Shown: positions 3,766 to 62,383 of the stretch, piece by piece | How the letters are laid out: each line of letters opens with the position of its first letter | Numbering within the stretch: the first letter of the stretch is position 1 | Source of the DNA: a bacterium | GTDB lineage: Bacteria > SAR324 > XYD2-FULL-50-16 | Length of the DNA stretch: 64,000 nucleotides | Direction: 5' to 3' | Assembly: GCA_018830885.1 (NCBI GenBank) | Contig: JAHJRI010000076.1 | Span: forward strand, 53,268-117,267 | Translations under genes and position numbers: made by a program | The notes under the pieces: model-generated | What the model was told of the DNA's origin: nothing | Database searches by the model: none | The model's input: only the letters and a program-made list of their open reading frames with translations

Positions 3766-3846
3766 GCATCAAAGGGTTGGTGTTTCAATAACCCTGGAAG
3801 CCATGGATGGACTCGTGCGTTTCTTGAAAGATCAACCCTTTGGTGC
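3766..3846. repeat. Long hairpin repeat, copy A
   Basis: GCATCAAAGGGTTGGTGTTTCAA ... TTGAAAGATCAACCCTTTGGTGC arms; shares core CTGGAAGCCATGGATGGACTCGT with copy C. Confidence 0.7.
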
Positions 3847-3905
3847 GGTTCTATAATTTTACTGAATCAGGGTGCCCGATAGATATCTTCCAAAAGGACA
3901 TCAAC

Positions 3906-14336: not shown

Positions 14337-14498
14337 ATGCCGTTAACCTAAGCAACCTTTTCTTGCTGAGCACCAACGGTTCCGGTTTTCAAGAACCTTG
14401 GAAGCCAGGGATGGCTCCCCGGAGCTCCAGGAAGGATGAATGCGTTTCTTGAAAATCGGGACTGCTGGTGCGGAACCATTCGCGTAGGTTAACGACAT
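14337..14498. repeat. Long hairpin/MITE-like repeat, copy B
   Basis: Ends ATGCCGTTAACCTA ... TAGGTTAACGACAT; internal GCACCAACGGTTCCGGTTTTCAAGAA ... TTTCTTGAAAATCGGGACTGCTGGTGC. Confidence 0.75.
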
Positions 14499-14522
14499 TG
14501 AATGAGGAGAGAATCCCACTTC

Positions 14523-21108: not shown

Positions 21109-22428
21109 TCAGGCCGCGCTATTCCTGGAAAGGTACTTGGCTGCTTCAATGGCTGCTGCACCGGCCTCGGTAATGGTATCAACGATGTCCTTGGGACCCA
21201 ATGCAACCCCTGCCGCAAAAACCCCCTCCATATCGGTCAATGAAGGGGCTGTCATCGGTTTAATCGATCTGATAAAGGCATCCGTATCGCAGGAGACATT
21301 GCAGACGCCCGCAGGGTTCCATTCTGGAACCATTCCCAACGACAGAACCACCAGATCATGGGCCCTGGTCAGGACTCCCCCGTCTCCCTCCTGGTTCTCA
21401 TACCTGAGTTTGACGGTTTGATGATCCCCCTGTTCGATTTTTGCAATTTTGCTTTTTACAAACTCAATACCCATGGCTTTGGCGTTTTGAAAAAACTGTT
21501 CGTAGCCCTTTCCAAAAGCGCGAATATCCATATAGTAAATCGTAATATCCGCCAGGGGTAAAGAACCGGAGAGAAGCATGGCTTGTTTGATGGCGTACAT
21601 GCAGCAGACCCTGGAACAATAAGGTATCCCCAGGGATTTATCCCTGGAGCCGGCGCATTGGACGTAGGCGATGGATTCCGGTTCTTTCCCGTCTGAAGGT
21701 CTCAATACACGATGATAGGGTCCGTGGGGGGCCAGAAGTCTTTCCATTTCCATGGACGTAATCACGTTCTGGACGTTACCCTGGCCATATTCGGGTTTTT
21801 GCTTCATGGAGGTCAGTTTAAAACCAGTCGTCAGAATGGCGGTCGTTGCTTTAATCCTGAATTCTTCCGGCTGTTCGAGATAGTCGATGGCATCGGTGGG
21901 ACACACTTTGGCACATCGGCCACAAAGGGTGCAGTTGTCCATATCCAACACAGCTATCTGCGGAATCGCATTGGAAAAGGGGATATAGATCGACTTCCGC
22001 AGACTGAAGTTCCCCTGCTCTTCATTGGGAATATACACCGGGCAGACATATTCACACTGACGGCAGCCGATACAGGTATCCGGATTGACGTATCTTGTTT
22101 TCTGATTGAGGGTTGCTTCAATGCCAGCAGATGAACGCTGCAGCTCTTTCAGTTCGCAATAGGTGAATATGGAAATATTATCATGATGGGCCGCAGAGGC
22201 CATTTTCGGCGTGGTAATGCAACTGGCGCAATCCAACGTAGGAAACACCTTTGATAGACGTATCATTTTGCCGCCGATCGTCGCATCTTTCTCCACAATT
22301 GCCACCTTAAAATCCTGATCGGCAAGATCGAGAGCAGCTTGAAGACCGGCGATACCACCGCCAACAACAAGGGCATCAAAATTCAATTCACGACTGGCAT
22401 GCATGAATTTCTCCTGGATATCCGGCAT
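21109..22428 (-). CDS. HdrA/QmoA-like FAD protein
   Basis: VVGGGIAGLQAALDLADQ, FPTLDCASCITTPKM, CIGCRQCEYVCPVYIP, CTLCGRCAKVCPTDAI. Confidence 0.9.
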   Translation of the reverse strand: MPDIQEKFMHASRELNFDALVVGGGIAGLQAALDLADQDFKVAIVEKDATIGGKMIRLSKVFPTLDCASCITTPKMASAAHHDNISIFTYCELKELQRSSAGIEATLNQKTRYVNPDTCIGCRQCEYVCPVYIPNEEQGNFSLRKSIYIPFSNAIPQIAVLDMDNCTLCGRCAKVCPTDAIDYLEQPEEFRIKATTAILTTGFKLTSMKQKPEYGQGNVQNVITSMEMERLLAPHGPYHRVLRPSDGKEPESIAYVQCAGSRDKSLGIPYCSRVCCMYAIKQAMLLSGSLPLADITIYYMDIRAFGKGYEQFFQNAKAMGIEFVKSKIAKIEQGDHQTVKLRYENQEGDGGVLTRAHDLVVLSLGMVPEWNPAGVCNVSCDTDAFIRSIKPMTAPSLTDMEGVFAAGVALGPKDIVDTITEAGAAAIEAAKYLSRNSAA

Positions 22429-25134: not shown

Positions 25135-25411
25135 CTTGAATCAATAGTCATGGTTGAATCGATAGTGATCGTCAGCCGCAAATCCCTTCCATTTTCCGCA
25201 AACTGATGGCAACTATCAGAAATATAGTGATTAAATTAATATCTTGTCAGTCTGGAGGTCTCCCCCCTCATACCGAACTTGATCCGCTATCCAGGTTAGC
25301 TTATCTTTGAAATTATTCTGGATTCCGTGTCGAGCACGGAATGACAATATTCGAGATCAACATTATGCAAAAATTCAGCTACTTAGAAGAGAACTCAAAA
25401 CTGAACAGTCA

Positions 25412-25540
25412 ATGCCGTTAACTTAAGACTGTTCCGCACCATAGGGATGTCATTTCAAGAGACGCATAAATCCATCCTGGAGCTCCTGGAAGCCATGGAT
25501 GGACTCGTCGTTTCTTGAAAGATCAACCCTTTGGTGCGGC
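25412..25540. repeat. Long hairpin/MITE-like repeat, copy C (right end not recognised)
   Basis: ATGCCGTTAACTTAAGACTGTTCCGCACCATAGGGATG...CAACCCTTTGGTGCGG; core ATCCATCCTGGAGCTCCTGGAAGCCATGGATGG. Confidence 0.75.
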
Positions 25541-25922
25541 AAGCTCGATAATGTTTATTAATCAATGTGCCCTTAAATCCTTCTTGGATTTTTAAAAGCT
25601 GTCAACCGGTAATATGGCGACATCTAAAACCAGACCGCTGCCGCTGGGAATCGGGCCGCCGATTATCGTCGGAGCGGTAACCAACCAAATCCATGATCCA
25701 AATGCCATTCTGATGATAACCCCTCTTTTCCATTGCCTCCCGATATAGAATGCCTGGTCGCCGGTCATCTTTTTTTAAAAAGCCCTTGACAAGAAAATGT
25801 TTGTTGTTTAACGTTTCTTCTCGAATTCATTGTCCCTCTGCATTTGACTCATGTTAATTTCCGCCGGTGTCCGCACTGGTTTGGAACCAGTCTCAACACC
25901 GGTTTTAAAAAGGAGATCCGTC

Positions 25923-27255
25923 ATGAAGAAAAAAGCAATTGCTGGCCTTTCGTTTATCCTTCTGATTTTTCTGCTCTTACCTTTTTCCCTGGCCGCCAAA
26001 GAGATCAAAACCCTCTCACAATTTCCCATGAGCGGACCGGTGGGATCGTTACCCGAATTTGGCTGGGGGTTCATTGACGCTATCAACTGGGTCAACAATG
26101 AGGGCGGCGGTGTCAACGGCAAAAAGATAACCTGGTTCCTGGAGGATATGCGCTACAGTCCCACTGTCGAAGTCGCCACGTTCAACAAGTACGTCGCCGA
26201 GCATGACCCCAGCGAGTTTCTGATGGTCACAGGGTATATTACCGGTGGTTTGAAACCGCTGATCAGCAAGGTCAATGAAGAGGAAAAGATCCCCTGGCTG
26301 GACGGCTCTTATTCCACCGAGATTTTCGGCGAAACCGGCGGCCCCCAAAAATACCCTTACTATTATTCCCTGGGGGCCACCTACGGCAGCCAGGTCAAGA
26401 TACTGGTGAAATGGATCAAGGAAAACCACACAGGTCAAGATACTGGTGAAATGGATCAAGGAAAACCACAAAGGAAAAGGGGCTCCCAGACTGGGCTTTG
26501 TATACAGTCCCACAGCCTGGGGAAGAGACGGCACCCCGGAAGCCATTGAATATGCCAAGAAACTGGGTGTGAAGGTGGTCGCCCAGGTGGAATATCCCTA
26601 CACGGCCACATCAGCCACCAACGAGTGTATGACCCTGCGTAAAGCGAAGGCCCAGTATGTGATTTATCATGGATATTCCGGTGCTGCCGGACATACGGCC
26701 ATCTTTTTTAAGACTGCCAAAAAGATCCTCAAAGATACCCAGCTCATGGGTACTCACTACACCACCGGCCGTTTCCCGATCCTGGTCGCCCAGGAAGCCT
26801 TCGACGGGTATGTCGGTGTGGCCACACGGCCCTTTGGGGATGCGGTCCCCCGATCGGCCACCAAGATGGACAACCCCATGATCAAGCTGGCCCACGAATT
26901 TGCCCAGAAGTACCGTCCGGAAGAGTATAAGAACGAGATGCGGGGTGGTATCAAGGATATCTTTCTGTATATGGAGGGGCTGACGTATGCGTTCCTGCTG
27001 CAGAAAGCCCTTACCGATGCCGATAATGCCGGTGATCTGACCCGTGAGGGCGTCAAGAAAGCCCTCGACAATATGGTCTGGGATTTCAAGGGGATGTTCG
27101 ACGGCAGGACCTTCTCCTATAAGTCCCACACGATTCCCATGATGCGGATGTACAAGGCCCATGTCAAGATGGTCGATTATCAGGGGAAAAAGGTGCCAAC
27201 CGGTTACATGACACCCGTCGGGGACTGGATCAATACCGACGAAATCCAGTGGTAA
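25923..27255 (+). pseudogene. Branched-chain amino acid-type ABC transporter substrate-binding protein, frameshifted by a 40-bp tandem duplication
   Basis: ORF MKKKAIAGLSF...TYGSQVKILVKWIKENH leaves frame at 26431; frame resumes as ...KWIKENHKGKGAPRLGFVYSP. Removing one 40-nt copy fuses the ORFs. Confidence 0.85.
26391..26470. repeat. Perfect 40-bp tandem duplication
   Basis: caggtcaagatactggtgaaatggatcaaggaaaaccaca at 26391-26430 and 26431-26470. Confidence 0.98.
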
Positions 27256-27335
27256 CGGATTCCCCTAGAACGGCTGGACATCTTTCCAGCATCATTTTCG
27301 GTGCCGGTTCCCCATCATCCGGGTGAACCGCCAAA

Positions 27336-27388
27336 CCGTGATCTTCGGGAAGAACCCGTCTTCCGGCGGCCTTTCCTGAAGATCACGG
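27336..27388 (+). terminator. Intra-operon hairpin between the binding-protein and permease genes
   Basis: CCGTGATCTTC (27336-27346) / GAAGATCACGG (27378-27388), followed by tggtttt. Confidence 0.6.
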
Positions 27389-27462
27389 TGGTTTTAACCC
27401 ATGGGCAGGGCTGACAGTTCCGTGCAACCCTGTTCGGTCAATCAAGAACTCCTGGAGTGTTT

Positions 27463-28347
27463 ATGACCGATTTCATTCAGGCCGTTGGTGATGGTGTATT
27501 CATTGGTTTGGTATATGCGCTGCTGGGTCTTTGTATCGTCATTATTTTCAAAGCCTCAGAGACATTCAATTTTGCGATAGGTGAGTTTCTGGTCATCGGA
27601 TCCTTTCTCTTTTATGTTCTCTTTTTCGATCTGAGACTGCCCCTGATCGTGGCGCTTCCCCTGGGTCTGGTGGCAGCTGGCATCGTAGGCGGTATTATTG
27701 AATGGTTTTCCATTAAGCCGTTGCTGGGACGTTCGCCGTTGTCGATGACGATGGTCACGCTGGGATTGAGTTTCCTGTTGAGGGCCATCGTTCAGTTTAT
27801 CTGGGGGTCTGACTCCTACTCGTTTTTCATGGAACTGCCGGACTTGACGGTTGAAATCAGTAACTACCTGTTCATTTCGGACCCGATCTGGGCGGGTCTG
27901 TTTTCTGTCGTGACCTTTATCATCGTCCTGGTGTTTCTCTATCGGACGCGATGGGGTCTGGCCATCCGGGCCGTTTCCGAGGACCAGGCCAAATCCATGG
28001 CCTTTGGGATCAATGCCCGGTTCATTCTGCTGATGATCTGGGCCATCAGTTCCGCCTGCATCGCCGTTGCCGGTATCATGATCTCAAATTTCGGGGCGCT
28101 GTCGGTGGGATCGGGTTCCGTGGGTCTGCGTGCGATTCCCGTTGTTCTGATCGGAGGTATGGACAGCATTATCGGAGCCCTGCTGGCCGGCATCATTGTC
28201 GGTATCTGTGAATCTCTGGCCGGGGCCTATATTGAACCGATGGGGCTGGTGGGTTTCAAGGAGGTGGCTCCCTATTTTGTGATGCTGCTGGTTCTGTTTA
28301 TCAGGCCCTATGGACTTTTTGGAACCGTTCGGATCGAGAGGATTTAG
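27463..28347 (+). CDS. livH: LivH-like branched-chain amino acid ABC permease
   Basis: Hydrophobic; QAVGDGVFIGLVYALLGLCIVIIFKASETFNFAIGEFL. Confidence 0.85.
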   Translation: MTDFIQAVGDGVFIGLVYALLGLCIVIIFKASETFNFAIGEFLVIGSFLFYVLFFDLRLPLIVALPLGLVAAGIVGGIIEWFSIKPLLGRSPLSMTMVTLGLSFLLRAIVQFIWGSDSYSFFMELPDLTVEISNYLFISDPIWAGLFSVVTFIIVLVFLYRTRWGLAIRAVSEDQAKSMAFGINARFILLMIWAISSACIAVAGIMISNFGALSVGSGSVGLRAIPVVLIGGMDSIIGALLAGIIVGICESLAGAYIEPMGLVGFKEVAPYFVMLLVLFIRPYGLFGTVRIERI

Positions 28348-28349
28348 GT

Positions 28350-29135
28350 ATGCTGTCAATCAATAATTTACGCGTGGTCTACCACGATGTGATCTCGGTG
28401 CTCAACGGTATCTCCATGGAGGTGAAACAGGGCGAGATCCTGGTGATCATCGGTGCCAACGGTGCCGGAAAAACGACACTGCTGCGCACGATCGCCGGCA
28501 TGATCCACTTTTATGACGGCGATATTATCGACGGGGACATCAAAATGGGGGATGTGTCGATCAATGGGCTGGACTCCTCCGATATCATGAAGCGGTATTC
28601 GCTGACCTATGTGATGGAGGATCGGCCGATTTTTGAATATCTTACCATCGAGGAGAACCTGAAGGCCGCCGCCTACTCCCGCTGGGATAGTAAGGTCAAG
28701 GGGGATATAGAGAAGGTACTGGGCTATTTCCCGGCTCTGAAAAATACGTTCAACCGCCGGGCCGGCTATGCATCGGGAGGAGAACAGCAGATGCTGGCCA
28801 TCGGGATGGCCCTGATGACAAAGCCCAGAATGCTGCTTCTGGATGAACCCTCCCTGGGTCTGGCCCCCATGATCACCCGGGAGCTGTTCCAGATTATCCA
28901 GAAGCTGAATGAGTCCGGGATCACGATTGTCCTGGTGGAACAGAACGCTTTTGCCGCTCTGAGCATTGCTGACCGGGGGTATGTGGTCGAGATGGGACGG
29001 GTGGTCCTGGATGGAGAGGGACAGGCACTGTTGAAAAACGAGGATGTCCGGGAGTTTTACCTGGGTGCCGGTGAATCTGAACGCAAGAGCTATAAGGACG
29101 CCAAGCGCTATAAACGCCGAAAACGATGGTTATGA
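28350..29135 (+). CDS. livF: LivF-like ABC ATPase
   Basis: GANGAGKTTLLRTIAG, YASGGEQQMLAIGMALMTKPRMLLLDEPSLGLAPM. Confidence 0.88.
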   Translation: MLSINNLRVVYHDVISVLNGISMEVKQGEILVIIGANGAGKTTLLRTIAGMIHFYDGDIIDGDIKMGDVSINGLDSSDIMKRYSLTYVMEDRPIFEYLTIEENLKAAAYSRWDSKVKGDIEKVLGYFPALKNTFNRRAGYASGGEQQMLAIGMALMTKPRMLLLDEPSLGLAPMITRELFQIIQKLNESGITIVLVEQNAFAALSIADRGYVVEMGRVVLDGEGQALLKNEDVREFYLGAGESERKSYKDAKRYKRRKRWL

Positions 29136-29923
29136 ACATGACGGAAAACAACACCCTGCTGGAGATTAACCACCTGACGCTCTCCTTCGGAATGCGAAAG
29201 GTACTGGATGACATCAGCCTCTCGGTGCCCCGGGGATCCATCTATTCGATTATCGGTCCCAACGGTGCCGGGAAGACCAGTCTGATCAACTGCATCAACA
29301 TGCATTATCGCCCCGAAAGCGGCAGCATGATGTTCGATGGTGTTCCCCTGACGGGTCTGCAGCCGAACAAGGTCGCTACGCTGGGGATTGCCCGCACATT
29401 TCAGAAGGTGGAACTGTTTCATGGGATGACCGTCCTGGATAACATCAAACTGGGACGCCATTTTCTGATGAAATTCTCGCTTTTCGGCAGTTTTTTTCGG
29501 CTGCCGCATATCGTGAAGGACGAAATGAAACACCGACAGGATATTGAAGAGCACATTCTCGATTTCATGGGATTGACCAGTTTCCGATATGCCCCGGTGG
29601 GAACTCTCCCCTTCGGTATCCGTAAGCGGGTGGATATGGCCCGGGCCCTGGCGATGAAACCCAAGCTGCTGCTGCTGGATGAAATCATGGCCGGCATGGC
29701 GGTTGAGGAGAAAGAGGATATTGCCAGCTATATCATGGATGTACAGCGGGATCTGGATGTCACCATTGTCTGGATCGAACATGACCTCTCGGCAGTGATG
29801 GATCTGTCCGACAAGGTCTGTGTTCTCAATTTTGGAAACAAGATCGCCGAAGGACTGCCAGCTGAGGTACAGAAACACCCGCAGGTGATCGAGGCTTATC
29901 TGGGCACCCAGGAGGTATCATGA
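29132..29923 (+). CDS. livG: LivG-like ABC ATPase
   Basis: GPNGAGKTSLINCINMHYRPESG, LLLDEIMAGMAVEEKEDIA. Confidence 0.85.
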   Translation: MNMTENNTLLEINHLTLSFGMRKVLDDISLSVPRGSIYSIIGPNGAGKTSLINCINMHYRPESGSMMFDGVPLTGLQPNKVATLGIARTFQKVELFHGMTVLDNIKLGRHFLMKFSLFGSFFRLPHIVKDEMKHRQDIEEHILDFMGLTSFRYAPVGTLPFGIRKRVDMARALAMKPKLLLLDEIMAGMAVEEKEDIASYIMDVQRDLDVTIVWIEHDLSAVMDLSDKVCVLNFGNKIAEGLPAEVQKHPQVIEAYLGTQEVS

Positions 29924-31833
29924 GCAGACTGGAAGAGACGCTGGTCGGGTTGATTGTCAAGAACGCCAGCGAGATGCCCGATGTGGCCGCCATGCGTGAA
30001 AAACGGTATGGCGTCTGGCATCCCACCACCTGGCGGGAATTCAAAACCCAGGTTCAGCGATTTGCCCTGGGTCTCAAGGCCATGGGATTCGAGGCTGATA
30101 ACAAGCTCACCATCGTCGGTGACAACAAACCGGAATGGATCATTGCCGAGTTCGGCTGCATGGCAGCCGGGGGGATTCCAACCGGTGTCTATCCGGACAG
30201 CCTGCCCGAAGAGGTTGAGTACCTGATCAGTTATTCGGAATCCCGTTTCCTGGTCGTGCGGGATCAGGAGCAGGTGGATAAAATTCTGACTTTCTGGGAC
30301 CGGATCCGTCACCAGGTCCTGAAAGTGATCGTCTGGGATTCCCGGGGCATGAGCCACTACTATGACGAGTACCCTTTTCTGGAGGAGTTCAAGCGGGTTA
30401 TCCAACTGGGTGCGGAACAGGCGGCGGATCGGACCGATTTCCTGAAACAGGCGGCCGAAGCCATGGATCCGATTCAGGTGGCCATGATGCTCACGACTTC
30501 GGGGACCACGGCCAAACCCAAGCTCTCCATGCTCAGCCATGAAAACCTGATTTTCGCATCCACCCAGTATGGCAGTGTGACGGACCTGTCCCGGGGAGAC
30601 GAACTCATGTCCATCGCCCCCCTGGCCTGGATCGGGGAGCAGTCCTTCACGGTCGCGCGATTTCTGACCATCGCCGCCTATTATAATTTCCCCGAAGAGA
30701 CCGAAACCGTGCGCCGGGATCTGCTGGAACTGCAACCCTATTATTTCGGGGGTACCCCGGCGGTCTGGGAACTGCTGATTTCAAGTATCCAGGCAGCCAT
30801 TGATAATGCGGACCGCCTCAAACAGGTGTTCTACCGCCTGGCCATCGATACGGCGCTGAAAAGAACCGAAGCGGAACTGGCGGGGACCGCCGTCGGCATA
30901 AAGACGCGGATCCTGCATCCTGTCCTGGGTTTCTTCGTTATCCGTGCCCTGAAGAACCGGATGGGGCTGGGACGGGTCAAGTCCGCTATCACCGGTGGCG
31001 GCGCCATCTCACCCGAGGTGTTTAAGTACTTCAAAGCCCTGCGGCTGGATCTGAGACAGATATACGGGCAGTCGGAATGTTCCGGGATTGCCTCCACCCA
31101 CCGCAAAACCGATGTTCGTCCGGAAACGGTCGGGGTGCCCATACCGGGTGTGGAGGTTAAAATATCCGCTGACGGCGAAATCCTGGTGAAGGGGAAAAAC
31201 GTGCATCTGGGGTATTACAACAAACCGGAAGCGACCCGGGAGGCCCTGACGGAGGACGGATTCCTCAAGACCGGTGACGCCGGTTACTTTGGGGAGGATG
31301 GTCATCTGTATGTCTTTGACCGATCCAAGGACATGATGACCATTACGGACGGAACCCGTTTCGCCCCCCAGGACATCGAAACGCGTCTCAAATTCAGCGC
31401 CTATATTCGCGATGTGATGGTCATCGGACAGGGTCGACCCTATATCACCGCCATTGTCAGCATCGATATGGAAAATGTGGGGAACTGGGCCAAAAAACGG
31501 GGTATCTCCTACACCACGGTCCAGGATTTGTCCCAGCGTGCTGAAGTCTATGATCTGATCAGCCGGGAGATCAGCAAGATCTGTCAGCGATTTCCGGAAA
31601 ACATCCGGGTTAAACGATTCGTAAACCTTATCAAGGAACTCCATCCCGATGATGGAGAACTGACCCGTACCAAGAAAGTTCGGCGGGGATTTGTCAACGA
31701 TCGCTACCAGTCACTGATCGATGACCTCTTCAGCGATAAAGACAGGCATCAGCTCGATATCGAGATCCGGTACGAGGACGGTCGGATATCCAATTTCAAA
31801 GGCGATGTGACCATCCAGGAGGTAGCCCCATGA
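29920..31833 (+). CDS. AMP-dependent synthetase / long-chain acyl-CoA ligase
   Basis: TTSGTTAKPKLSMLSHENL, IYGQSECSGIASTHRKT, FLKTGDAGYFGEDGHLYVFDRSKDM. Confidence 0.92.
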   Translation: MSRLEETLVGLIVKNASEMPDVAAMREKRYGVWHPTTWREFKTQVQRFALGLKAMGFEADNKLTIVGDNKPEWIIAEFGCMAAGGIPTGVYPDSLPEEVEYLISYSESRFLVVRDQEQVDKILTFWDRIRHQVLKVIVWDSRGMSHYYDEYPFLEEFKRVIQLGAEQAADRTDFLKQAAEAMDPIQVAMMLTTSGTTAKPKLSMLSHENLIFASTQYGSVTDLSRGDELMSIAPLAWIGEQSFTVARFLTIAAYYNFPEETETVRRDLLELQPYYFGGTPAVWELLISSIQAAIDNADRLKQVFYRLAIDTALKRTEAELAGTAVGIKTRILHPVLGFFVIRALKNRMGLGRVKSAITGGGAISPEVFKYFKALRLDLRQIYGQSECSGIASTHRKTDVRPETVGVPIPGVEVKISADGEILVKGKNVHLGYYNKPEATREALTEDGFLKTGDAGYFGEDGHLYVFDRSKDMMTITDGTRFAPQDIETRLKFSAYIRDVMVIGQGRPYITAIVSIDMENVGNWAKKRGISYTTVQDLSQRAEVYDLISREISKICQRFPENIRVKRFVNLIKELHPDDGELTRTKKVRRGFVNDRYQSLIDDLFSDKDRHQLDIEIRYEDGRISNFKGDVTIQEVAP

Positions 31834-32933
31834 AGACAGTTTCCGAATGGTACAATTCCATCTTCTCCTCGACCGCTGTTTTCAGCCATGTCGAAGACGA
31901 GCAGATTTTCCGGACCCGGTTTAAACGCGCCTGGTTCAGGGGGTTTCTGATCCTGATGCTGATCATGGTGGTCGCCTCGGAATTCGGGTACGGCGCCAAT
32001 GAGTACCATTACTTTATCCTCAACCTGATCCTGGTGAACCTGATCGCAGCCATCGGTCTCAACCTGCTCGTCGGTTTTACCGGTCTGCTCTCCCTGGGAC
32101 ATGCCGCGTTTATGGGCGTCGGTGCTTATACCAGCGCACTCCTGATTACCAGGGCCGGATTCCCTCTGGTCGTTTCCATGATTGCAGGCGGTCTGGCAGC
32201 AGCCCTGGCAGGGTTGATCGTGGGTATCCCGTCGCTGCGGATTAAGGGATTTTACCTGATGGTGGCCACCCTGGCGTTCCAGATGGTGATCGATTATGGC
32301 GTGATCCACTGGGAAAGCCTGACCCAGGGAATCCGGGGGATCGAGCTGCCAACACCGGAATTCCTGGGTCTGTCTCTCCAGGACCAGCAATCGTTTTTTG
32401 TTTTTATTTTTGTCATTACGGTGGTGATGATGTGGGGGGCCAAGAACCTGACCCGATCCAAAATCGGCCGGGCGTTTGTCGCGATCCGTGATAACGATGT
32501 CTCGGCCGAGGTGATCGGGATTCCGATTTTTCCCTATAAACTGCTCTCCTTCTCCGTCAGTGCCTTTTATGCAGGACTGGCAGGGGCCCTCTTCGCGTCC
32601 CTGATGCGAACGGCGATTCCGGAAGACTATCACATCACACACTCCATCATGTTGCTGGCCATGGTTCTGATCGGGGGACTCGGTCGACTCACCGGTACGG
32701 TCTTCGGTGTGATTTTCATGACGCTGGTGCCGGTCCTGCTGGACAATTTTTTCAGCTTTCTGAGTATCGTCTACGACCCCAATATCACCATCATGCTGGG
32801 ACCTGCCAAAGAGTTTGTTTATGGTGGTCTGATCGTGCTGTTTATCATCTTTGAACCGGAAGGCCTGATTGCGATCTGGATCCGTATCCGCGACTATTTC
32901 AGGATCTGGCCGCTGCCGTATATCTCAGAGTAG
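31830..32933 (+). CDS. livM: LivM-like branched-chain amino acid ABC permease
   Basis: NLILVNLIAAIGLNLLVGFTGLLSLGHAAFMGVGAYTSALL. Confidence 0.9.
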   Translation: MKTVSEWYNSIFSSTAVFSHVEDEQIFRTRFKRAWFRGFLILMLIMVVASEFGYGANEYHYFILNLILVNLIAAIGLNLLVGFTGLLSLGHAAFMGVGAYTSALLITRAGFPLVVSMIAGGLAAALAGLIVGIPSLRIKGFYLMVATLAFQMVIDYGVIHWESLTQGIRGIELPTPEFLGLSLQDQQSFFVFIFVITVVMMWGAKNLTRSKIGRAFVAIRDNDVSAEVIGIPIFPYKLLSFSVSAFYAGLAGALFASLMRTAIPEDYHITHSIMLLAMVLIGGLGRLTGTVFGVIFMTLVPVLLDNFFSFLSIVYDPNITIMLGPAKEFVYGGLIVLFIIFEPEGLIAIWIRIRDYFRIWPLPYISE

Positions 32934-38750: not shown

Positions 38751-39470
38751 ATTGTCTGCCGGTCATTTCGGGTCTTCCAACGCATATCATTTCGCCGGCG
38801 GCGACAAACCTGCTGGACATGGGTCTTGTTACATCGAATCGCGATGTTTACTGCGAGAACACAGATTTCACTGGAATCAGGCTACCCGGATGTCAACGGT
38901 CTTTGTATGCGATGCCGGACACAATTCAAGAGCCAGGGCTGAGACAGAATCAGCGGGATTGATCATGGCATCGGGAACAGGACTGAAATCCTCCTGAATA
39001 GTGATACCCATTTCAAAAAACCCGGTTTTCGGTAACTTATCAGACACCAATGGGAATTGGCAACGTCACCGCACCTTGAATGGTACTGATGAATCATTGC
39101 TTTGTGAGGTCCGGGATGTGTCCGACACACTCAGTCTCGAGCGCCACTGCAACCTGGCCGAAGAACGAACGGGCGGTTCAGCCGGGATGAATCATGGCAA
39201 GGACAGCCGAATTTACCTTACTTTTAAAAACGGATACCCGACTCTGGAAAAGGCTGATATGATTATTTCAGGCTCAGCCAGTGATAAACGGCTTACAGTT
39301 TTTTAAAATATATCTTTCCAGAAGGGAAAGGGAGGGATATTGTTCTGTATCTCAAATCGGCTCATGAAAACAGGGTTTTACAGCCCATTTCCAATAACGG
39401 GATAACGGGATCGGCATGCCTGAGGAACTGGACTGGTGCAAAACAGATTCGTAACTATTCACCTGCGTAC

Positions 39471-39571
39471 GCCCCAAAGGGTTTGTGTTTAAAGAAACGC
39501 ATGAATCCTCCTGGAGCTCCTGGAAACCATCCCTGGCTTCCAGGGTTCTTGAAACACAAACCCTTCGGGGC
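39471..39571. repeat. Long hairpin repeat, copy D
   Basis: GCCCCAAAGGGTTTGTGTTT ... GAAACACAAACCCTTCGGGGC; core AAGAAACGCATGAATCCTCCTGGAGCTCCTGGAAACC. Confidence 0.75.
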
Positions 39572-43157: not shown

Positions 43158-45692
43158 CTAAAATTGAAAGGGATTTTTATTGGGCTTTTTGCCGGCTGGT
43201 GATTCCGAAACCGGTTTTTTTACCGGACTGAGGTCTGCAGAGGGCTCGTTTCGCTCTGTTTCAGCGGGGTCTTTTTCTCTAAAGATCGGTTTCTCATCCA
43301 CCATCCCGGCACCTGAATTTCGGGGCGGGTCCGCTGTTACGCTTTCCTGTGGTATCGACGAGGCATCATCATCGAAGGAGAACAGGGAGCCCAGTGTATA
43401 GATGGACTTTGGTTCTTCTTTAATCGGAATCAGCTGTATTTTGTCATCTTCATAACGGCTGCCGGGATGAACCATTGGTTTATCGGAATCGACGGCCTTC
43501 TGGACCTGAGCCGTCACGATAGTGCCTTCTGACGTTGGATCGACAAACGGCTCTTCGACGAACCAGTCGTCATCACTGACCGGTTCGGTGTCCTCTTTTT
43601 CACCGACGAGGGATGGAACGGAATTTTCATTAATTCCCAGCACTTCGCAAAGTACCGGATATAGAGCAGAAGCGTCATCCAGGGAGTTTAACCGATAAGG
43701 GGCCACCTGCAGGCTCATCATTCCGGCAGCCCCTTTTTCCAGACCGATCAGCAGATCCAGGGTTGTCTTCTGTCGGCTGGCTGCGATCTGATCCATGGGA
43801 TCCAGAATTAAAACGGGGACGAAAGGCCGTTGAGACTGGTTTCTCATCTTCAGGCATGCAACCAGCTCGTGAAATGGGTAGGCATCATAGTTGAGGATAT
43901 ACAGATCATAGGCATCGTTATTAAAATCCCGGATCCCGGGCAGGACCGGGGATCGCTCGATCCGTCCTGAAATATCACCCGGTTTGACGCGAAAGAACGT
44001 CTGCAGCAGCATATCGCTGACCGAGATATGTTTTGAAGCCAGGAAAATAGACACCCGGGAGAGCAGATCATCCTCCCAGTTGACGGATTGTTTTCCCCAA
44101 CGTTCCAGAAAATAGGGTTCTTCCGGGCTGGTATGGACCAGCCGGTTCACCTTGGCGATCCCACATCCCAGGATAGTCATTTCCAGCTTGTTCAAGGTAT
44201 GAATCCCCAGAATCTGCTGGTAGGTTTTTTCCGGGTCCAGCGGGTTCTGACCGGCATATGCATTCATTTTTTTGAGCATCAGCGTCACCAGGGCATTCAA
44301 TTGTCGCACCTGGGACTCAATCTCCTTTTTCTGCTTTAGCAAATTGCTCAGGGTGTGAAGGTCCGCGGGATTCAACTTAATCAGTTCGGGTTGCAGGACT
44401 GCTTTTTGAGACTTGATCTGTTTGATTGTCTTCGGGTCGGTGAAGGCGGCAAGGAGGTCTTTGACGTAAAACGTCAGTTCCGGGTTGTCATCAACCTCTT
44501 TCTGGATCTCGGTGATGTTCTCCGAAATCATCTGAATATGCCTCAGGAGACGTTTTCGTTTCTTGTTCAGGGCCACGTATGCGGTTTCGTTCAAACCGCC
44601 TTTGGCTTCGGACGTATGAAGTTCATATTCGGCGGTTTTCAGCAGCAGCTCCAGTTTCTGTCGTTCCTTGACCAGCTTTTCCGTTCTGACCGCCAACTTC
44701 GCTGGATCCTCATTTTGCTTGCGAACCTCTTTGCGGGTCAGTTCAGGGCTTTTCATCAAGCGGAATTGCACCGGCATCATCCCCTTGTCTATTTTCCAGG
44801 GATTGTAAAAGACAACTTCGTGTTCGTCGAAAACAGAGCATTTGGATAGAAAGTCGTGGTGGGTGACCTCATGTCCGGGAACTCTCTCCTGGTAAAGCTG
44901 TTTGAATTCACTGAATGTCCTGCCAAATGTATGTTGGCTCATGGTTGTCAGAAATCGTTTGCGGAACCCCTTATCCTCCAGCTGGTCATAGCTCCGCTCT
45001 CCCATATCGTCAATCAGCAGTATTTTGACATATTTTTTCATCACATCGCCCAGGGTGAAAAGCTGTAGGACGTTGTCGATGGCCTGTTTGAGGAAATATC
45101 CCAGGAGATGGAAATAGCCACTGTCAACCGTCTGCATTTGATCCTTCAGATTTTTGATTGCCGACTGCCGTTCCTCGATCACTGACAATTTCAAACGGAT
45201 ATTCTGCTGGAAACTGGCCAGATTCTGGAAGTGTTCATCCTTTTCCTGGATCTGGATCGCTTTCTTCAGCTGTAAAAATCGTTCCTCCAATACGGTCAGA
45301 TTCCCCGTTTCCCTGGGAAAGGGGGTCATTCTGGTTTCGGAAGGGGTGCCTTTGATCTCAAACAAATCCGTCTTTGATGGGGGTTTTCCTGGCGGATTCA
45401 CCGGAATCGGCTCCTTCTCAGATCCTGATGCCGGTAAATCACATTGAAAGGCCAGTATCCGGTCATAGGAGCTGAATTCTGCCGGCAACGTGTCCGGTCT
45501 GGTGATGACCAGGGTGATACCGGTGTTTTTCAGTCTGCCTGCCAGGGATGCCTGGTACAGATCGCAATAGTCCTTTGGCATACACAGGATAATACGCTGG
45601 TCTGCCTGCAACTTTGACAGTCCCTTCAAGAAGATGAAAGGGTCCTGGCCCTTGACAGGCTGCTGATCTGGCTGCTTGATGATTTGAGACAT
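43158..45692 (-). CDS. Uncharacterised 844-aa protein with coiled-coil-like centre and possible degenerate receiver-like regions
   Basis: Long ORF; charged/heptad-like central region; LLIDDMGERSY and YDLYILNYDAYPFHELVACLKMR segments. Confidence 0.75.
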   Translation of the reverse strand: MSQIIKQPDQQPVKGQDPFIFLKGLSKLQADQRIILCMPKDYCDLYQASLAGRLKNTGITLVITRPDTLPAEFSSYDRILAFQCDLPASGSEKEPIPVNPPGKPPSKTDLFEIKGTPSETRMTPFPRETGNLTVLEERFLQLKKAIQIQEKDEHFQNLASFQQNIRLKLSVIEERQSAIKNLKDQMQTVDSGYFHLLGYFLKQAIDNVLQLFTLGDVMKKYVKILLIDDMGERSYDQLEDKGFRKRFLTTMSQHTFGRTFSEFKQLYQERVPGHEVTHHDFLSKCSVFDEHEVVFYNPWKIDKGMMPVQFRLMKSPELTRKEVRKQNEDPAKLAVRTEKLVKERQKLELLLKTAEYELHTSEAKGGLNETAYVALNKKRKRLLRHIQMISENITEIQKEVDDNPELTFYVKDLLAAFTDPKTIKQIKSQKAVLQPELIKLNPADLHTLSNLLKQKKEIESQVRQLNALVTLMLKKMNAYAGQNPLDPEKTYQQILGIHTLNKLEMTILGCGIAKVNRLVHTSPEEPYFLERWGKQSVNWEDDLLSRVSIFLASKHISVSDMLLQTFFRVKPGDISGRIERSPVLPGIRDFNNDAYDLYILNYDAYPFHELVACLKMRNQSQRPFVPVLILDPMDQIAASRQKTTLDLLIGLEKGAAGMMSLQVAPYRLNSLDDASALYPVLCEVLGINENSVPSLVGEKEDTEPVSDDDWFVEEPFVDPTSEGTIVTAQVQKAVDSDKPMVHPGSRYEDDKIQLIPIKEEPKSIYTLGSLFSFDDDASSIPQESVTADPPRNSGAGMVDEKPIFREKDPAETERNEPSADLSPVKKPVSESPAGKKPNKNPFQF

Positions 45693-45723
45693 TTTTTTAG
45701 CCCTCCCGCAGTGGCTTTTCGGT

Positions 45724-47394
45724 TCAATTGGTGGCTGAGACTTGCTGCTGCTCCCTTCTCAACCATTCGGTAGCAAAATAGACTTTATCCAATAACTGTT
45801 TGCGTGAGAATGGTTTGATTAGATATCCCCTCACACCGACGCTGAGGGCCTCCACAATGGATGCCTTATTGTCTACGGTGGTCAGCATCAGAAAAGTGAC
45901 GTTGCGAGCCAGCTCTTCGACCTGCATGATTCGTTTAACCAGCTCTATGCCTGTTAATTTGGGCATGATCCAGTCACAGAGGATAACATCCACCAGCGGT
46001 TTTTTTTGCAGAAGCACCCAGGCCGCTTCTCCGTCACCCGCCTCTGAAATCTGTTTTACTCCGGCATCTTTGAGTACCTTGATCGTCATCTGTCGGATCC
46101 GGTCGGAATCATCCACCACCAGGAATGTCAGATCCCGGACGACGGACAGGTCAGCCTCCTCATCAGTTGGCGCATCAGCGGTAGATGACGGTTTTGGTTT
46201 TGAGACAGGGGCGAACAGCTGCTGGACTTTAGCAGAGGTCTCTTTTTCCCCCATCTGTTGTTCAGCATAGAGTGCACCCAGCACCTCCCAGACTCTGGAA
46301 GTGAAGGGGTAGTTCTCGCTATCCGAAGCGGGGACCTCCCGACAGGCCAGGGCCAGGTTTTCAAGGTGGTTTCCCTGTGACATCATGGGCAGGATCAGGG
46401 CCCGGATCTCGTCTTTTCCCAGACAACCCATCCACATCACCCGCTGGGTGGGGGTGAGCGTGCTGAGTGTCTCCATAAGTCGTGTTTTTTGCTCCACCGG
46501 CAGTTGCATGAACAGAAAATGGTGCTGCCGGTATCGTTCCCAGGCATCGTCCCGTTCCAGCCGGTCTCTTGTAAAACCGATCCTGTCCGGTATGATGGGT
46601 AGAAATTGTCGGATCTGAAGGGGAACCTGTTTTTTCGACATCAGCAATTCCATGGCGATGTTGAATACGGATATGTAGATGGACCGCAGACAGTTGATCG
46701 CGTGCAGACTCAACGGATCATGATGATTGGGATCGGCACGGTCACATATCCGGTTGATGAGGTCTCCCATACGCGGCCAGGCGTTTATCTGCTGCTCGTT
46801 GAGCAGACTGTTGGCCAGGATGGTCGGCTCCTGCTCAAACGCTTCCAGAAACCGGCTGATCATGTGAACCGCCTTGACCTGCAGGAAGCTGATATACCCT
46901 CTCCGCAGCTGGCTGAAAACCCCTTTTTTATATACGGTCAGGTTTTCCAGGTATTCAAAATATGACGGAATACTGCTGGCCAGCAGCAGTGCATCCAGCT
47001 CTTCAGACAATTCCAGTATTTCACCCTGGTTGCCGTCCGTCTCTGCAAAGAAGCGTGGACGGATCAGTTCTTCAAAGATTTGAGGTATTGTCTTTTTCAG
47101 CTCAGCAAAGAGCTGGCGTTTGACGTAACTTCGATCGCCGATTTTCAAATCCTTGATTTTTACCCACTCCAGTTTTTCTTTTTGAGACATATCGTGCCAG
47201 GCTGGATATTTATTCAGCATCATATCGCTGGCACTGAGCATTTTAAAAAAGTGTGCATGCATCTCGGATAGCTGATAATAACTGAAGCGCGCCGTTCTCA
47301 CCACGGCCAGTATCGTCTCCAGCATTGGCAGGGAAATATGGGATATCTGCAGTAATTTCTTATCTTTAGGGTCGTGCACGTTAAGATAGAGCAT
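45724..47394 (-). CDS. Novel N-terminal region fused to a C-terminal receiver domain
   Basis: C-terminal LTFLVVDDSDRIRQMTIKVLKDAG...VDVILCDWIMPKLTGIELVKRI...GYLIKPFSRKQLLDK. Confidence 0.85.
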   Translation of the reverse strand: MLYLNVHDPKDKKLLQISHISLPMLETILAVVRTARFSYYQLSEMHAHFFKMLSASDMMLNKYPAWHDMSQKEKLEWVKIKDLKIGDRSYVKRQLFAELKKTIPQIFEELIRPRFFAETDGNQGEILELSEELDALLLASSIPSYFEYLENLTVYKKGVFSQLRRGYISFLQVKAVHMISRFLEAFEQEPTILANSLLNEQQINAWPRMGDLINRICDRADPNHHDPLSLHAINCLRSIYISVFNIAMELLMSKKQVPLQIRQFLPIIPDRIGFTRDRLERDDAWERYRQHHFLFMQLPVEQKTRLMETLSTLTPTQRVMWMGCLGKDEIRALILPMMSQGNHLENLALACREVPASDSENYPFTSRVWEVLGALYAEQQMGEKETSAKVQQLFAPVSKPKPSSTADAPTDEEADLSVVRDLTFLVVDDSDRIRQMTIKVLKDAGVKQISEAGDGEAAWVLLQKKPLVDVILCDWIMPKLTGIELVKRIMQVEELARNVTFLMLTTVDNKASIVEALSVGVRGYLIKPFSRKQLLDKVYFATEWLRREQQQVSATN

Positions 47395-49831
47395 CGTTCA
47401 ACTCCTGTTCTAAAAAATCGGCCTTTTTGTCTGGAATGGTTATCTCACCGAGCGTAACGGGGATCTGCAGACAAACACGGGTTCCGCTGTTTTCTCGGGA
47501 TTCGATGGAGACTGCGCCACCCAGGGCTTCCATTTCAGTTTTGATCAGACTCATTCCCACGCCCCGACCCGAGATCAAGGTCATCGAGCTGGCAGTGCTG
47601 AAACCCGGTTCGAACAGAAGTGCCAGTATCTGGTCCCGGGGCAGGTTCTGCCGCATCTGATCAGCGGTGGATGGATCGATCAGGTTCAACTGCAGGGCCC
47701 GGGCCACCGTTTTTTCCAGATGTACCCCCTTGCCTTCATCCTTGACACAGATAACCAGCTTGTCACTGTTCTGCATGATCATCAGTTGAATCTGGGCTTT
47801 CCCCGGTTTTCCAAGCAGGCGGCGTTCACTGGGGGTTTCAATCCCATGGAAAACGGCGTTCTTGACCATTTGAATCAGGCAGGAACTCAGCCGGTGCAGG
47901 ATCAGCAGATTGACCAGAACCGGGGTCTTCTCAATCACCTTGAACACAACCTGTTTGTTCAGCAACCGGGCCGTGTCTGTGATGATCCGCTGCAACCTGG
48001 GAAAGACAATATCGAGTTTTACTTTATCCAGGGCAGACAACTCATTTTTCAGTTTCAACAGTGTTCCCCCATCCCCGTGATGCTGGTTGCCATTGTGACG
48101 ATCATCCAGCAACCGGTTCACCGTTTGTTTAATCTGCTGAAACTGTTTCAGCGAAATGCGGAACTCAGGCTCCCGGGAACGGGAAAGACCCAGATCTTTG
48201 GTTTCCTCTGTATGGCACAGACTCTTGGATACGACCAGCAAAGATAACAGGGTCTTGAAAGCAGTGGTCAAATAACCGGAGGCAGCCGGCTGAGCAGTGC
48301 TTTTAACGCTTTCCGCCAGACAGTCTTCGACTTCATGGGAAGCTGCTGCGATTGTATCGAGGCCGAAAGACTGCCCCATCCCCTTGACAGAATGGATCAA
48401 TCCCGCGATTAGCGGATGGTTCACTGCCAGAGAATGGGGCGTGGTCATATGGGACTGGGCGATCTCCAGGGAGATCTGCATTTCGTTCAGCGCTTCCGAC
48501 AGGTTTGCGTGATGTTCAGCCTCTGCGGCCATCACCTCCTCCATCAGTTTCATGGTTGAGTACTGGAACTCCTGGGTTTTCTCCTCTGTGTCCATGAACC
48601 TGAATTTCCCCAGGACTTCAGAATAGGTTCTGGTTTTGCTTAAATTCAGTGTAAAAGAGAGCTCTATCACTTTTCCCAGCACGGTTTCAAAGGTGAATCC
48701 GGGCGCCAGGTCGGTCAGTTCATCCCTGTTCATGGTCTCCAGCATAAACGGGTCGCCCAGCATCTTGAGCCAGCGTTGGAAGTGATCCTGCTGATCCCTG
48801 GGCTGGCTGATCAGGATCGTTTGCAGGATGTTTTTCCCTTTCAGGTTTTTCCAGGTGGGAAAATGCATCTGCCCAACCTGGGAATGGCTGAAGGTCTCCT
48901 GGATGATCAGGCCGGTTTCCGTTTCGATCAGGACCAGCAACTGTTCCAATTTGCTGAGCATGTTCTGGAAAGAGGAGAGCTCGCTCTGGTACTCCCTGCT
49001 CTGGGTCACGTCATCAATCCCGATGTCAAAACCGGTCGTCTGTTCGGACCCATCAGTCGTAAGATGATAAAACAGTCTGAATATCCGGGTACCCCCGTCC
49101 GGGTGCCGGTAGGTTACCTCATCCGGCAGCCGTTTCAATTTGGTGGAGAGACTCTCCGTATGGTTGCTGGCAAAGGCCTGGATGGCCTTGTCCCACTTGT
49201 CAGCCAGGGGGTTGCTCTCAGCAAACAGCAGTTCACTGAGCCTTCTGCCTGCCAGCTGCGTGATTCCCAGGTAATCGATGCACCGGCTGGAAAACTCGTC
49301 GGTAATCAATCCATCCAGATTGATCTTGATGATGCCGTGGGGGATATGTTTCAGGATTTCACTGAACCGGTGACTCAGTGACTGCAGACGACCGGTAATT
49401 GTCTGGAACATCTTCAGGCGCAAGGCGGGAATGGTGTCCACCACTGAGAGGAACGTCTGCCGCTCGATTTGCCAGACCTGGCATGGGGTGACGGCCCTTG
49501 CCGTAGCTGACGCGGTTGCTTCCCCTGAGAGGCATGACATTTCCCCCAGCGAATCCGTCGCACCTCTCTGGGCGACCCGATCATTGTTCACCAGAATATC
49601 CACCAGGCCCTGCCGGATAATATAAACCGCCGACACCGGTTCTCCCTGGATCAGGATGTCTTCCCCGATTTCTTTCTGTTTCAGGTGCAGATGATCCCCG
49701 ATCAGGTTCAATTCGGCATCATCGAGCTCTTTAAACAGGGGAACGGTGCGTATTCTATTAATCACGCCACTTCTGCCGGTGCCTTCTTTGTTCTGGTCCG
49801 GATGATGGATGTCCACCTGAGCCTGCTGCAT
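47381..49831 (-). CDS. Cyclic nucleotide-binding-domain, PAS, CheA-like HATPase protein
   Basis: cNMP motif IRTVPLFKELDDAELNLIGDHLHLKQKEIGEDILIQGEPVSAVYIIRQG; HATPase VKNAVFHGIETPSERRLLGK, ISGRGVGMSLIKTEMEALGGAVSIES. Confidence 0.85.
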   Translation of the reverse strand: MQQAQVDIHHPDQNKEGTGRSGVINRIRTVPLFKELDDAELNLIGDHLHLKQKEIGEDILIQGEPVSAVYIIRQGLVDILVNNDRVAQRGATDSLGEMSCLSGEATASATARAVTPCQVWQIERQTFLSVVDTIPALRLKMFQTITGRLQSLSHRFSEILKHIPHGIIKINLDGLITDEFSSRCIDYLGITQLAGRRLSELLFAESNPLADKWDKAIQAFASNHTESLSTKLKRLPDEVTYRHPDGGTRIFRLFYHLTTDGSEQTTGFDIGIDDVTQSREYQSELSSFQNMLSKLEQLLVLIETETGLIIQETFSHSQVGQMHFPTWKNLKGKNILQTILISQPRDQQDHFQRWLKMLGDPFMLETMNRDELTDLAPGFTFETVLGKVIELSFTLNLSKTRTYSEVLGKFRFMDTEEKTQEFQYSTMKLMEEVMAAEAEHHANLSEALNEMQISLEIAQSHMTTPHSLAVNHPLIAGLIHSVKGMGQSFGLDTIAAASHEVEDCLAESVKSTAQPAASGYLTTAFKTLLSLLVVSKSLCHTEETKDLGLSRSREPEFRISLKQFQQIKQTVNRLLDDRHNGNQHHGDGGTLLKLKNELSALDKVKLDIVFPRLQRIITDTARLLNKQVVFKVIEKTPVLVNLLILHRLSSCLIQMVKNAVFHGIETPSERRLLGKPGKAQIQLMIMQNSDKLVICVKDEGKGVHLEKTVARALQLNLIDPSTADQMRQNLPRDQILALLFEPGFSTASSMTLISGRGVGMSLIKTEMEALGGAVSIESRENSGTRVCLQIPVTLGEITIPDKKADFLEQELNDALS

Positions 49832-49839
49832 AATTTCTC

Positions 49840-50187
49840 CTATCCCTTGATGGCATCCAGCGCTTTGTCGAGCGAATCGAATACCGTCAGCAACTGGTCG
49901 ATGCCGGTCACGTTGATGGTTTTCAGCACAAATGGGGAGACCGCCAAAATAGACAGTGTCCCCCCGATACCGTCCAGCTCCTTGTAGATCCACATGACCA
50001 CTCCGATTTCCGAACTGGAGAGCCACTCCTTATCTATCAGGTCCAGAAACAGGGTCTTCAACCCGGAAGATTTTAAATCGGCCATGGCATCCTTCACATG
50101 GGCTGGATCCTCCAGCTCGGTTTCAGGCCGCCAGATGGCAGCTTTGTCTTCCTGCAACAGGTCAATTTTCATGGTGTTGATCTCCAA
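49840..50187 (-). CDS. STAS-domain anti-anti-sigma-like protein
   Basis: SGLKTLFLDLIDKEWLSSSEIGVVMWIYKEL...LTVFDSLDKALDAIKG. Confidence 0.8.
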   Translation of the reverse strand: MEINTMKIDLLQEDKAAIWRPETELEDPAHVKDAMADLKSSGLKTLFLDLIDKEWLSSSEIGVVMWIYKELDGIGGTLSILAVSPFVLKTINVTGIDQLLTVFDSLDKALDAIKG

Positions 50188-50193
50188 ATTGTG

Positions 50194-53100
50194 TTAAACC
50201 ACCTCCAGGGCGATCATGGTGACATCGTCATTAAAGCCGCGATGGTTGGAAAAATCAAAACAGAACTGGTATATGGCTTCCAGCAGCTGGTCAACAGGCT
50301 GCCGGCTGTGTGTGAGCAGGAAGGCTTCCAGTTTTTCCCCATCCAGCATCTCTCCTTTGCCATTGGTTACCTCCAGCATACCGTCTGTATACACCAGCAC
50401 CTTGTCTCCAGGTTGCAGGGCAATGGATTTTGATTCAAAGGGCAGTCGCGGTTTCTCAAACATCCCGACAACCATTCCCGATGTCTGGAGCTGGATCAGT
50501 TTTTCAGCCCCGGGACGTATCAGATACCCGGGTGGATGCCCGGCGCTGGTGTATGTCAGGACCTTTTTTCCTAAATCGTAATGACAGTAGAACATGGTCG
50601 CATATTTACCGCCAGGCAGTTTGCCTGCCAGAAAGGCGTTTGACAGCTGCATAAAGGCATCCGGGGGTGAAAAGCTGCTCCTGCTGTTCTTGAACGTGGT
50701 CAGGTACAGAAAAGAGAGCAGAGCCGCAGGAATACCATGCCCGGTCACATCCCCGACAAGAATGCCCAGGCTGCCGGGATCATCTGTCACCAGATCATAA
50801 AAATCCCCGCCGATCTGGGCCATGGGGTGGTACTTGACAGCCAGTTTCAGATCCGGCAGTTCAGGCGGCTCTGCCGGAAGCAGCGCCAATTGTACCAGTC
50901 GGGCCTGCTCCAGCTCTTCAGTCATCTGCTGGTAGACAGTCTCCAGTTTTTTCTGCTGGATTCTGATCTTTTCTTCTGCCTTCCTGCGGTCCGTAATATC
51001 GGTCTGAAAACAGAGCGCTGCCGGACGGTTTTCCCAGTCGAACGGGATCACCCGGGTATCCAGCCAGCGAATATCTCCGGATTGATTGATAATCCGATAG
51101 GTAACCTCATTCGATACCGGTTCCCCTCTCAGGCGCTTAAAATGCCGCTCCCTGACCATCTCCAGGTCATCTTGATGTACCACATCGGCAAAGTCCCCCG
51201 ATTCATTGCCGTTTTCGTTTGCAGTAAAGCCATTCAGTTTCCGCTTCGCCGGATTAAGAAAGGTGGTTTTCCCGTCCTGTGCGACAAACATGGCGATGGG
51301 GGAGTTGTCAAAAATAATCTTATGCCGGGCTTCGCTTTTAACCAGAGCCGCTTTTAAACGATGGCTTTCGATGGTCCGACCCAATTTTTCAGCCAGGGTT
51401 TTCACCAGCTGTTGCTCTTCCTTGAGAAATGGTCCAATATCACCTGCAGGTCTCTCTTCGGAATAAAAAACCACCAGGTGACCGATTGTCTGACCCTGGT
51501 TTTTGATGTCAGCACGGATGGACCATTTTTCCAGGACAGGCAGTTCTCCATGGGGGGAGATGATCTCTTTTCCATCCTGAAATACAATGCGGGAATGGGT
51601 CACTTCGGGATATTGCATTGCCTGGGAAATAAGATCGATGGCACCGGAATAGATACCGTCCAGGGTGATGTCTGTTCTTTCAACCAGTTCTCCCATACCA
51701 TACAGGCAGTTCATCTCCTTGATCCGTTCGTTGAGTTCTGCGGTTTTCCGACGCAGTTGTTCTTCAGCAGCCATCCGGTCGGTGATATCAAAACCGGTAC
51801 ACATGAACTCGACCAGTTTTCCCGAGTCGTCGAAAACGGGGGTATTCCGCCAGGAGACCCAGACCTGGCGGCCATCTTTGCGCCGGTTTTCATTCTCATT
51901 ATCATTATATTTGTCTGGATGGTTGATCATCTCCTCCAGCCACATCCCCATGTCTCGTCCGGTGCTTTTTTCAACATCCGGTGTGATGGTCTCCAGGATA
52001 TTTTTTCCCAGCACCTCCGCTTCAGAATAACCAAAAAATGTCTGTCCGAAGCGATTCAAAAAGGTGAAGTTGAACCGACTATCGGCCTTCATGATAACTA
52101 TGTTCAAAGACTGGACCAGCTCCCTGTACTGCGTTTCGCTTTGACGGAGAGCAGCTTCCATGTTGAGGCGTTCGGTGGTATCGATGATAAACCCCAGTAC
52201 CGCGGGCCTGTCGTCCCAGAGAAAAGCGGAGGATTTGAGATCTACCCGGCGGTTATCGCCGCTCCTGGTTTTTACCCTGAAGGAGAAAATACCGGTCGGA
52301 AGGTTCCCCTGGGACTGTTTACGGAGATCCTGCAGAACCCCTGCCAGGTCATCCGGGTGGATGAAATGGGCAACAGGGGTACTTTCCAGCTCATCCGGCC
52401 GGTATCCAAACAGGGTCTCTGTTTCTGCATTGTGAAACACGATCCGGTCGTCATGGACCACAATGATGGGTATCGGGGCACTGTTAAACAGGGACTCGTA
52501 ATTTTTTCGGGTCCTGAACACCTGCTTTTCCAATTGTTTCCTGGGGTTATATCCCGAATAATGCTTGTTATATGAATATTATCGGTCGCCGTCCAGTGAG
52601 CGAGTGTCAGTTCGATGGCCAGTTCATGACCGTCTTTGTGAATCCCGTAAAGTTCTACGGGCTGGGTAATTTTCCGCTGTCCGGTTTGCCGGAACCGGCT
52701 GAAACCGTTCTGGTGAGATTCCTTGAAGCGGTCCGGGATCAGCAGGTTGATATTCTTTCCCAGCACTTCAGTTTCCGCATACCCGAATATCCGGGTTGCG
52801 GCATTGTTCCACAGATTCATGATGCCTTCACTGTCGGCACAGATGATGGCGTCACTGGCATTCAGAAATATGGATTTGAAGCGGATTTCACTTTCCCTGA
52901 TATTGGTAATATCCTTACCGACACAGAGAATACCCCGGGACTGGCCGTTTTCGTCCCACAGGTAGGAAACGGAGATGCGGAGATAAACCGTGCGACCAGA
53001 CCGGGTCGGATATACCCCTTCAATCATTCTCAGAAATCCGTCTTCAAACAGATCCCCGACGCTGTCCAGTCGTATTTTTTCCAGAACATCATGCCCCAGT

Positions 53101-53546
53101 ATCACCGTCACCGACTGCCCTACCAGTTCAGAGGCTTCATAACCGAATGTGTTCAATGTGGCAATATTGGCATCTTCAATCACCCCATGATTGTTCAGCA
53201 CAAGCATCAGGTCCGCCATGGACTGGATAATATTCTCCAGACGATTCCGGGATTGCTGCAGTTCAGCTGTTCGATCCTCAACCAGGCCTCCCAGGGAGTG
53301 GAGCAGGGTCTGGATCCGGTCCTGCCTGTGACCGACCATGCCGGCCAGCAGACCCAGCAGGAAGGGTGCTGAGTCAATGACCCACAGAAGTGGATTTGAT
53401 GACTGAATATGAACGATGCGGGCTACCGTCAATGGTCCTGCATCCAGATGCCATGCGATCACCGTCGCTGCCACGGGAAACAGCAAACCCAGCAGTATTC
53501 CATAGAGGGCATAGCGAATGATCTGTGATTGGTTGAACGTTTTCAT
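50194..53546 (-). CDS. Membrane multi-PAS/GAF sensor with C-terminal SpoIIE-type PP2C phosphatase (single frameshift near 52543-52546)
   Basis: Two overlapping ORFs (53546-52272, 52533-50194) join as ...ITSIIRDITP-RKQLEKQVFRTRKNYESLF; C-terminus IGGDFYDLVTD...GILVGDVTGHGIPAALLS...ALEVV. Confidence 0.82.
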
Positions 53547-53655
53547 TACCGATCCGGATCAGGAAGAAAAGTGATTTAAAGGTTTCTCGAAACAAATGGA
53601 CGGTTAACGCATCAGGAATCGATGGCAACGGGCATCTTTATTCAATTCCTAGAAT

Positions 53656-54561: not shown

Positions 54562-54638
54562 TCTCAGTTGCCCGTCGGGATGTTCATGTTCTTTGAAGAT
54601 ACCAGAAATAAACGGATTAAGCGAACTTCAATAAAACC

Positions 54639-56711: not shown

Positions 56712-56751
56712 GTCATCCTTGTCTGATGATGCTCCCGTTTATTTAACACAG

Positions 56752-56777
56752 AAAACCGTGTCCTTTGGGCACGGTTA
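56752..56777. repeat. Hairpin AACCGTGTCC-TTT-GGGCACGGTT, copy 2
   Basis: Near-identical to 11211-11235; terminator-like on minus strand after cheB. Confidence 0.55.
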
Positions 56778-56781
56778 GGTT

Positions 56782-62374: not shown

Positions 62375-62383
62375 AGAATGGGC

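Follow-up and report, generated by a model that had tools for sequence, protein, structure and literature searches.

A perfect 40-bp tandem duplication that splits the substrate-binding-protein gene of a Liv-type importer operon in a draft SAR324 genome

Spontaneous short tandem duplications that arise by replication misalignment are among the closest described counterparts of the locus analysed here, with which they share two perfect adjacent copies, a recent origin and the inactivation of a gene. Experimentally confirmed rearrangements in Salmonella carry long microhomology at their junctions, the events having been selected for it (PMC3411829), and slippage that does not depend on RecA can delete short perfect tandem repeats (for a review, see PMC4627823). 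In M. tuberculosis, moreover, genes are reported to be reversibly silenced by frameshifts via sequential indels, a process whose scars are visible in population data on thousands of isolates (PMC8339072). In terms of gene content, the locus resembles the importers of the Liv/Urt type (HAAT), i.e. pieces of a Peripla_BP_6 substrate-binding protein (SBP) are followed, in one direction, by homologues of LivH, LivF, LivG and LivM.

The window, i.e. the whole stretch of DNA that was analysed (64,000 nucleotides), derives from a draft genome of 7.41 Mb in 496 contigs with 6.43% contamination. Within it, the SBP gene is broken by an 80-bp array. We favour, with a probability of roughly 0.6, the reading that a recent spontaneous duplication of 40 bp, restricted to one lineage, inactivated the SBP of an accessory Liv-type importer operon.

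The array and the gene that it splits

The two copies of the 40-bp unit (caggtcaag...aaccaca) lie head-to-tail and are identical (100% identity, 0 mismatches, 0 gaps), as the initial annotation had claimed. Chance cannot account for a perfect repeat of this kind, and among units of 12 bp or more the 64-kb window contains no second perfect tandem array. The maximal exact match equals the period (both 40), so that extra homology at the junction is absent and the mark of a microhomology-mediated tandem duplication, a match longer than the period, is missing. An 11-nt inverted repeat (26337-26347 / 26371-26381) is found 10 bp upstream of the array. Slippage provoked by a hairpin was considered and rejected, as this inverted repeat folds unremarkably as a single strand (z about -1.5 relative to shuffles); the array region itself also folds no better than shuffled sequence (z about +0.5).

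The SBP gene starts at ATG 25923, which is preceded by aaggag, and its product has a lysine-rich, hydrophobic N-terminus (MKKKAIAGLSFILLIFLLLPFSLAA). In agreement with the loss of frame that had been deduced from the unit length (40 mod 3 = 1), the frame passes through copy 1, shifts in copy 2 and meets a stop at 26547-26549. The resulting product of 208 residues, the final ~40 of which are out of frame, is presumably non-functional. The downstream frame remains open as far as 27255, overlaps the first by more than 100 nt around the array, and encodes a piece that has no signal peptide of its own; the intact frame of an exported two-lobed SBP is thus interrupted at the duplication. The Peripla_BP_6 profile (Pfam, 343 positions) is matched consecutively by the two pieces, both above the gathering score. 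Since the matches continue from one frame (profile positions 9-135) into the other (127-339), they represent a single binding-protein gene that the duplication has split, which places the array inside an ABC binding-protein gene, as proposed. The identity of the copies, together with the lack of further stops in the rest of the gene, indicates that the duplication is young, and the earlier claim of a recent event is thereby borne out.

Table 1. Features of the split gene, the array and the downstream operon (positions in the window)
Feature	Position	Strand	Basis
SBP gene, 5' part	25923..26549	+	translation; Peripla_BP_6 E=2.1e-12, profile 9-135
Copy 1 of the 40-bp unit	26391..26430	+	exact tandem repeat
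Copy 2 of the 40-bp unit, adjoining copy 1 and identical to it	26431..26470	+	exact tandem repeat
SBP gene, 3' part, other frame	26446..27255	+	Peripla_BP_6 E=1e-16, profile 127-339; 64-82% identity to 17 relatives
LivH/UrtB-type permease, intact	27457..28347	+	NCBIfam matches; synteny
LivF-type ATPase, intact	28350..29135	+	NCBIfam matches; synteny
LivG-type ATPase, intact	29126..29923	+	NCBIfam matches; synteny
AMP-forming fatty-acid/acyl-CoA ligase (FadD-like), intact	29920..31833	+	NCBIfam; operon relatives
LivM-type permease, intact	31830..32933	+	NCBIfam matches; synteny

The operon, its relatives and its genomic setting

The LivH, LivF, LivG, ligase and LivM genes are all open and run in the direction of the SBP gene, and the linked permease and ATPase genes that are expected of a Liv-type system with a Peripla_BP_6 protein are thus present (27457-32933). 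The acyl-CoA ligase matches the FadD11-type NCBIfam model below its cut-off (E=4.7e-84) and is 70-72% identical to its operon relatives. As this ligase is embedded in the operon, the importer probably takes up carboxylic acids.

A scan of the genome_contigs collection recovered 17 related SBP loci, at a protein identity of 64-82%. All of them come from genomes assembled from metagenomes, namely those of Desulfobacteraceae/Desulfobacterales and of bacteria similar to these. Every one of the 17 has one unit and a frame that is open through the site; three of these frames end at a contig or locus boundary, away from the site of the duplication. The N- and C-terminal halves of the split SBP are each about 61-83% identical to the relatives and contain no further stops. 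The gene order SBP-livH-livF-livG-fadD-livM is complete in seven of the related loci, and the others match as far as their contig reaches. Both halves being conserved, and the remaining genes of the operon being open and syntenic, the view that a binding-protein gene was split by a tandem duplication is upheld. Because none of the 17 carries the pair, the one-unit state is, judged from this comparison of sequences, ancestral and the duplication private to this genome. A match to the SBP gene at the DNA level was absent from 38 related genomes, and the sole genome of the same genus (68% complete) does not contain the gene.

The distribution of the operon points to a foreign origin. Among the other genomes of the class and phylum (52 in the set) no relative of the SBP was found at E <= 1e-60, and the remaining 51 genomes of the class lack the operon of Liv and acyl-CoA-ligase genes (25923-32933). 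The SBP relatives at 75-80% identity are found in Desulfobacteraceae-type metagenome-assembled genomes (MAGs), in which the operon is 70-80% identical. A mis-binned contig, as these relatives might suggest, is not favoured, since the contig matches the host's own genus and family and has a tetranucleotide composition that is typical of this genome. More specifically, another stretch of the contig has 65-76% DNA identity to same-genus and same-family genomes and no match in the five Desulfobacteraceae-type genomes tested, and window positions 44000-63500 are collinear with a same-family genome, only two short matches being given by one of these five. The host genome's own rpoB was not found in the search. 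An operon that is absent from the class, close to that of Desulfobacteraceae-type MAGs and located on a native contig was probably acquired horizontally.

Several further elements were observed in the surroundings of the operon. Directly upstream lies an imperfect palindromic intergenic repeat (25405-25580) that is predicted to form a long hairpin of about -62 kcal/mol (as RNA, 176 nt) and that recurs in the window at 3793-3877, 14387-14504, 39470-39571 and 63678-63803. It is MITE- or REP-like, with about 91 copies in 1.57 Mb sampled from the genome, which would amount to several hundred per genome if they are evenly spread. A second, rarer interspersed repeat is found beside it (25236-25412; 4 copies in the sample; motif GGATTCCGTGTCGAGCACGGAATGACA). 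Elsewhere on the window's contig, L036:3600-3811 and L036:6983-7160 are dispersed repeats (72-87% identity) common to many contigs of same-family and of same-genus genomes, respectively. The window also encodes an HdrA-like FAD/iron-sulfur protein (21109-22428) that has a single close relative, at 63%, in a MAG of the Desulfarculaceae and is only about 40% identical to proteins elsewhere, its own family included; this may be another transfer. HdrA-like matches with a single in-frame TGA (G000:C202, G000:C10 and many other genomes) suggest a selenocysteine-containing HdrA in G000 and in these other genomes.

Fresh duplication, assembly error or switch

According to the preferred reading, the duplication would have arisen by replication misalignment or by an event similar to end joining, at a breakpoint without microhomology, and the shift of frame would then have inactivated the SBP of the operon of Liv-type and acyl-CoA-ligase genes. 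Such a loss should be tolerable because the same genome carries further SBP and acyl-CoA-ligase loci, which are intact and distant (on C333, C193 and C61). The importer is presumably idle or dispensable in these cells.

This reading presupposes that the array is true DNA, which we infer, and the explanation that competes most seriously with it, possible although we consider it less probable, is an error of assembly or consensus. In that case two overlapping pieces, or strain variants, would have been joined without a merging of the 40 bp by which they overlap; the organism itself would have one unit and an intact gene. The fragmentation and the contamination of the draft are in line with such an error, as are the single unit in every relative found and the evident constraint on the remainder of the gene, and an unmerged overlap of 40 bp would likewise give an exact equality of match length and period. 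On the other hand, an 80-bp array fits within one ordinary read, and assembly at high k normally needs read support, which counts against an error. We scanned 1,566,584 bases of the same genome (~21%) for perfect tandem duplications with a unit of 15-400 bp, and found about a dozen sites. Those inside long ORFs, the array of the window apart, have unit lengths that are multiples of 3 (among the sampled repeats is a 39-bp perfect in-frame one, L028:1094-1177, in a proline-rich low-complexity protein segment), and two units of other lengths (22 and 17 bp) are located where no long frame runs. Among the perfect duplications in the 1.57 Mb with units of 15 bp or more, the array is thus the only one that breaks an evident gene, and a second 40-bp duplication was not encountered there. 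Where the ends of sampled contigs overlap exactly, the lengths of the overlaps span 19 to 141, without a mode at 40. An assembler k-mer signature was accordingly rejected: a single 40-bp case, combined with contig-end overlaps that do not cluster at 40, gives no indication of a systematic artefact of assembler overlap. A search of the literature on such duplications in metagenome assemblies yielded nothing specific.

The initial annotation had also raised a reversible on/off state, in which the pair would be gained and lost at a useful frequency and the importer thereby switched off and on. Slippage can remove perfect tandem pairs, so that reversal is possible in principle, and the sequential indels of M. 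tuberculosis offer a precedent; nevertheless, this removability is a general trait of perfect tandem pairs and constitutes no evidence of a switch. The proposal did not stand up to the comparison and we regard it as very unlikely: the array has just two copies, the unit is duplicated in 0 of the 17 relatives, and the sampled 1.57 Mb contain no class of comparable frame-breaking arrays. Contingency genes are, to our knowledge, not usually importers of carbon substrates. A switch would require variation in copy number within the population and usually also conservation of the repeat, the latter of which is not seen in the 17 relatives. Slimmer still is the prospect that the 40-bp pair segregates as a reversible frameshift that leaves part of the population without the importer, which would give a free-living bacterium a contingency switch based on a single long tandem unit.

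It is hardly conceivable that a whole product is made by ribosomal frameshifting over the overlap of the two frames around the array, or two pieces by a restart at GTG 26446, since the duplication is missing in the relatives, so that an evolved recoding signal is not expected, the array region shows no special folding, and a restart would yield a binding protein that lacks its N-terminal half.

Comparison with known systems

The duplication is either an ordinary recent mutation or a slip of assembly, and no new mechanism is involved. Its meaning is chiefly that of a caution, in that a gene of a draft genome is silently turned into two annotated fragments by a single long tandem duplication. 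If real, it would capture an accessory importer, probably of horizontal origin, in the course of its loss or of a temporary silencing; it has no bearing on any long-standing open question.

With respect to the importer, the difference from described Liv/Urt-type (HAAT) systems is that the matches do not reach the equivalog cut-offs set in NCBIfam for branched-chain amino acid or urea systems, that the operon includes a gene for an acyl-CoA ligase, and that the SBP gene is broken. With respect to the array, the resemblance to spontaneous misalignment duplications is close, whereas the junction microhomology of the Salmonella rearrangements (PMC3411829) is lacking. The locus shares with phase-variable (contingency) loci that the copy number of a tandem unit sets the reading frame, but it has two long copies instead of many short ones, and the array that would be conserved among the relatives of a phase-variable locus is absent from them. 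Like the reversible silencing in M. tuberculosis (PMC8339072), it involves a frameshifting indel that silences a gene and that a second event could undo; unlike that case, it concerns one genome, in which there is no second event. Since reversible silencing by frameshift is already known from elsewhere (PMC8339072), even the reading as a switch would not make this locus a new kind of system.
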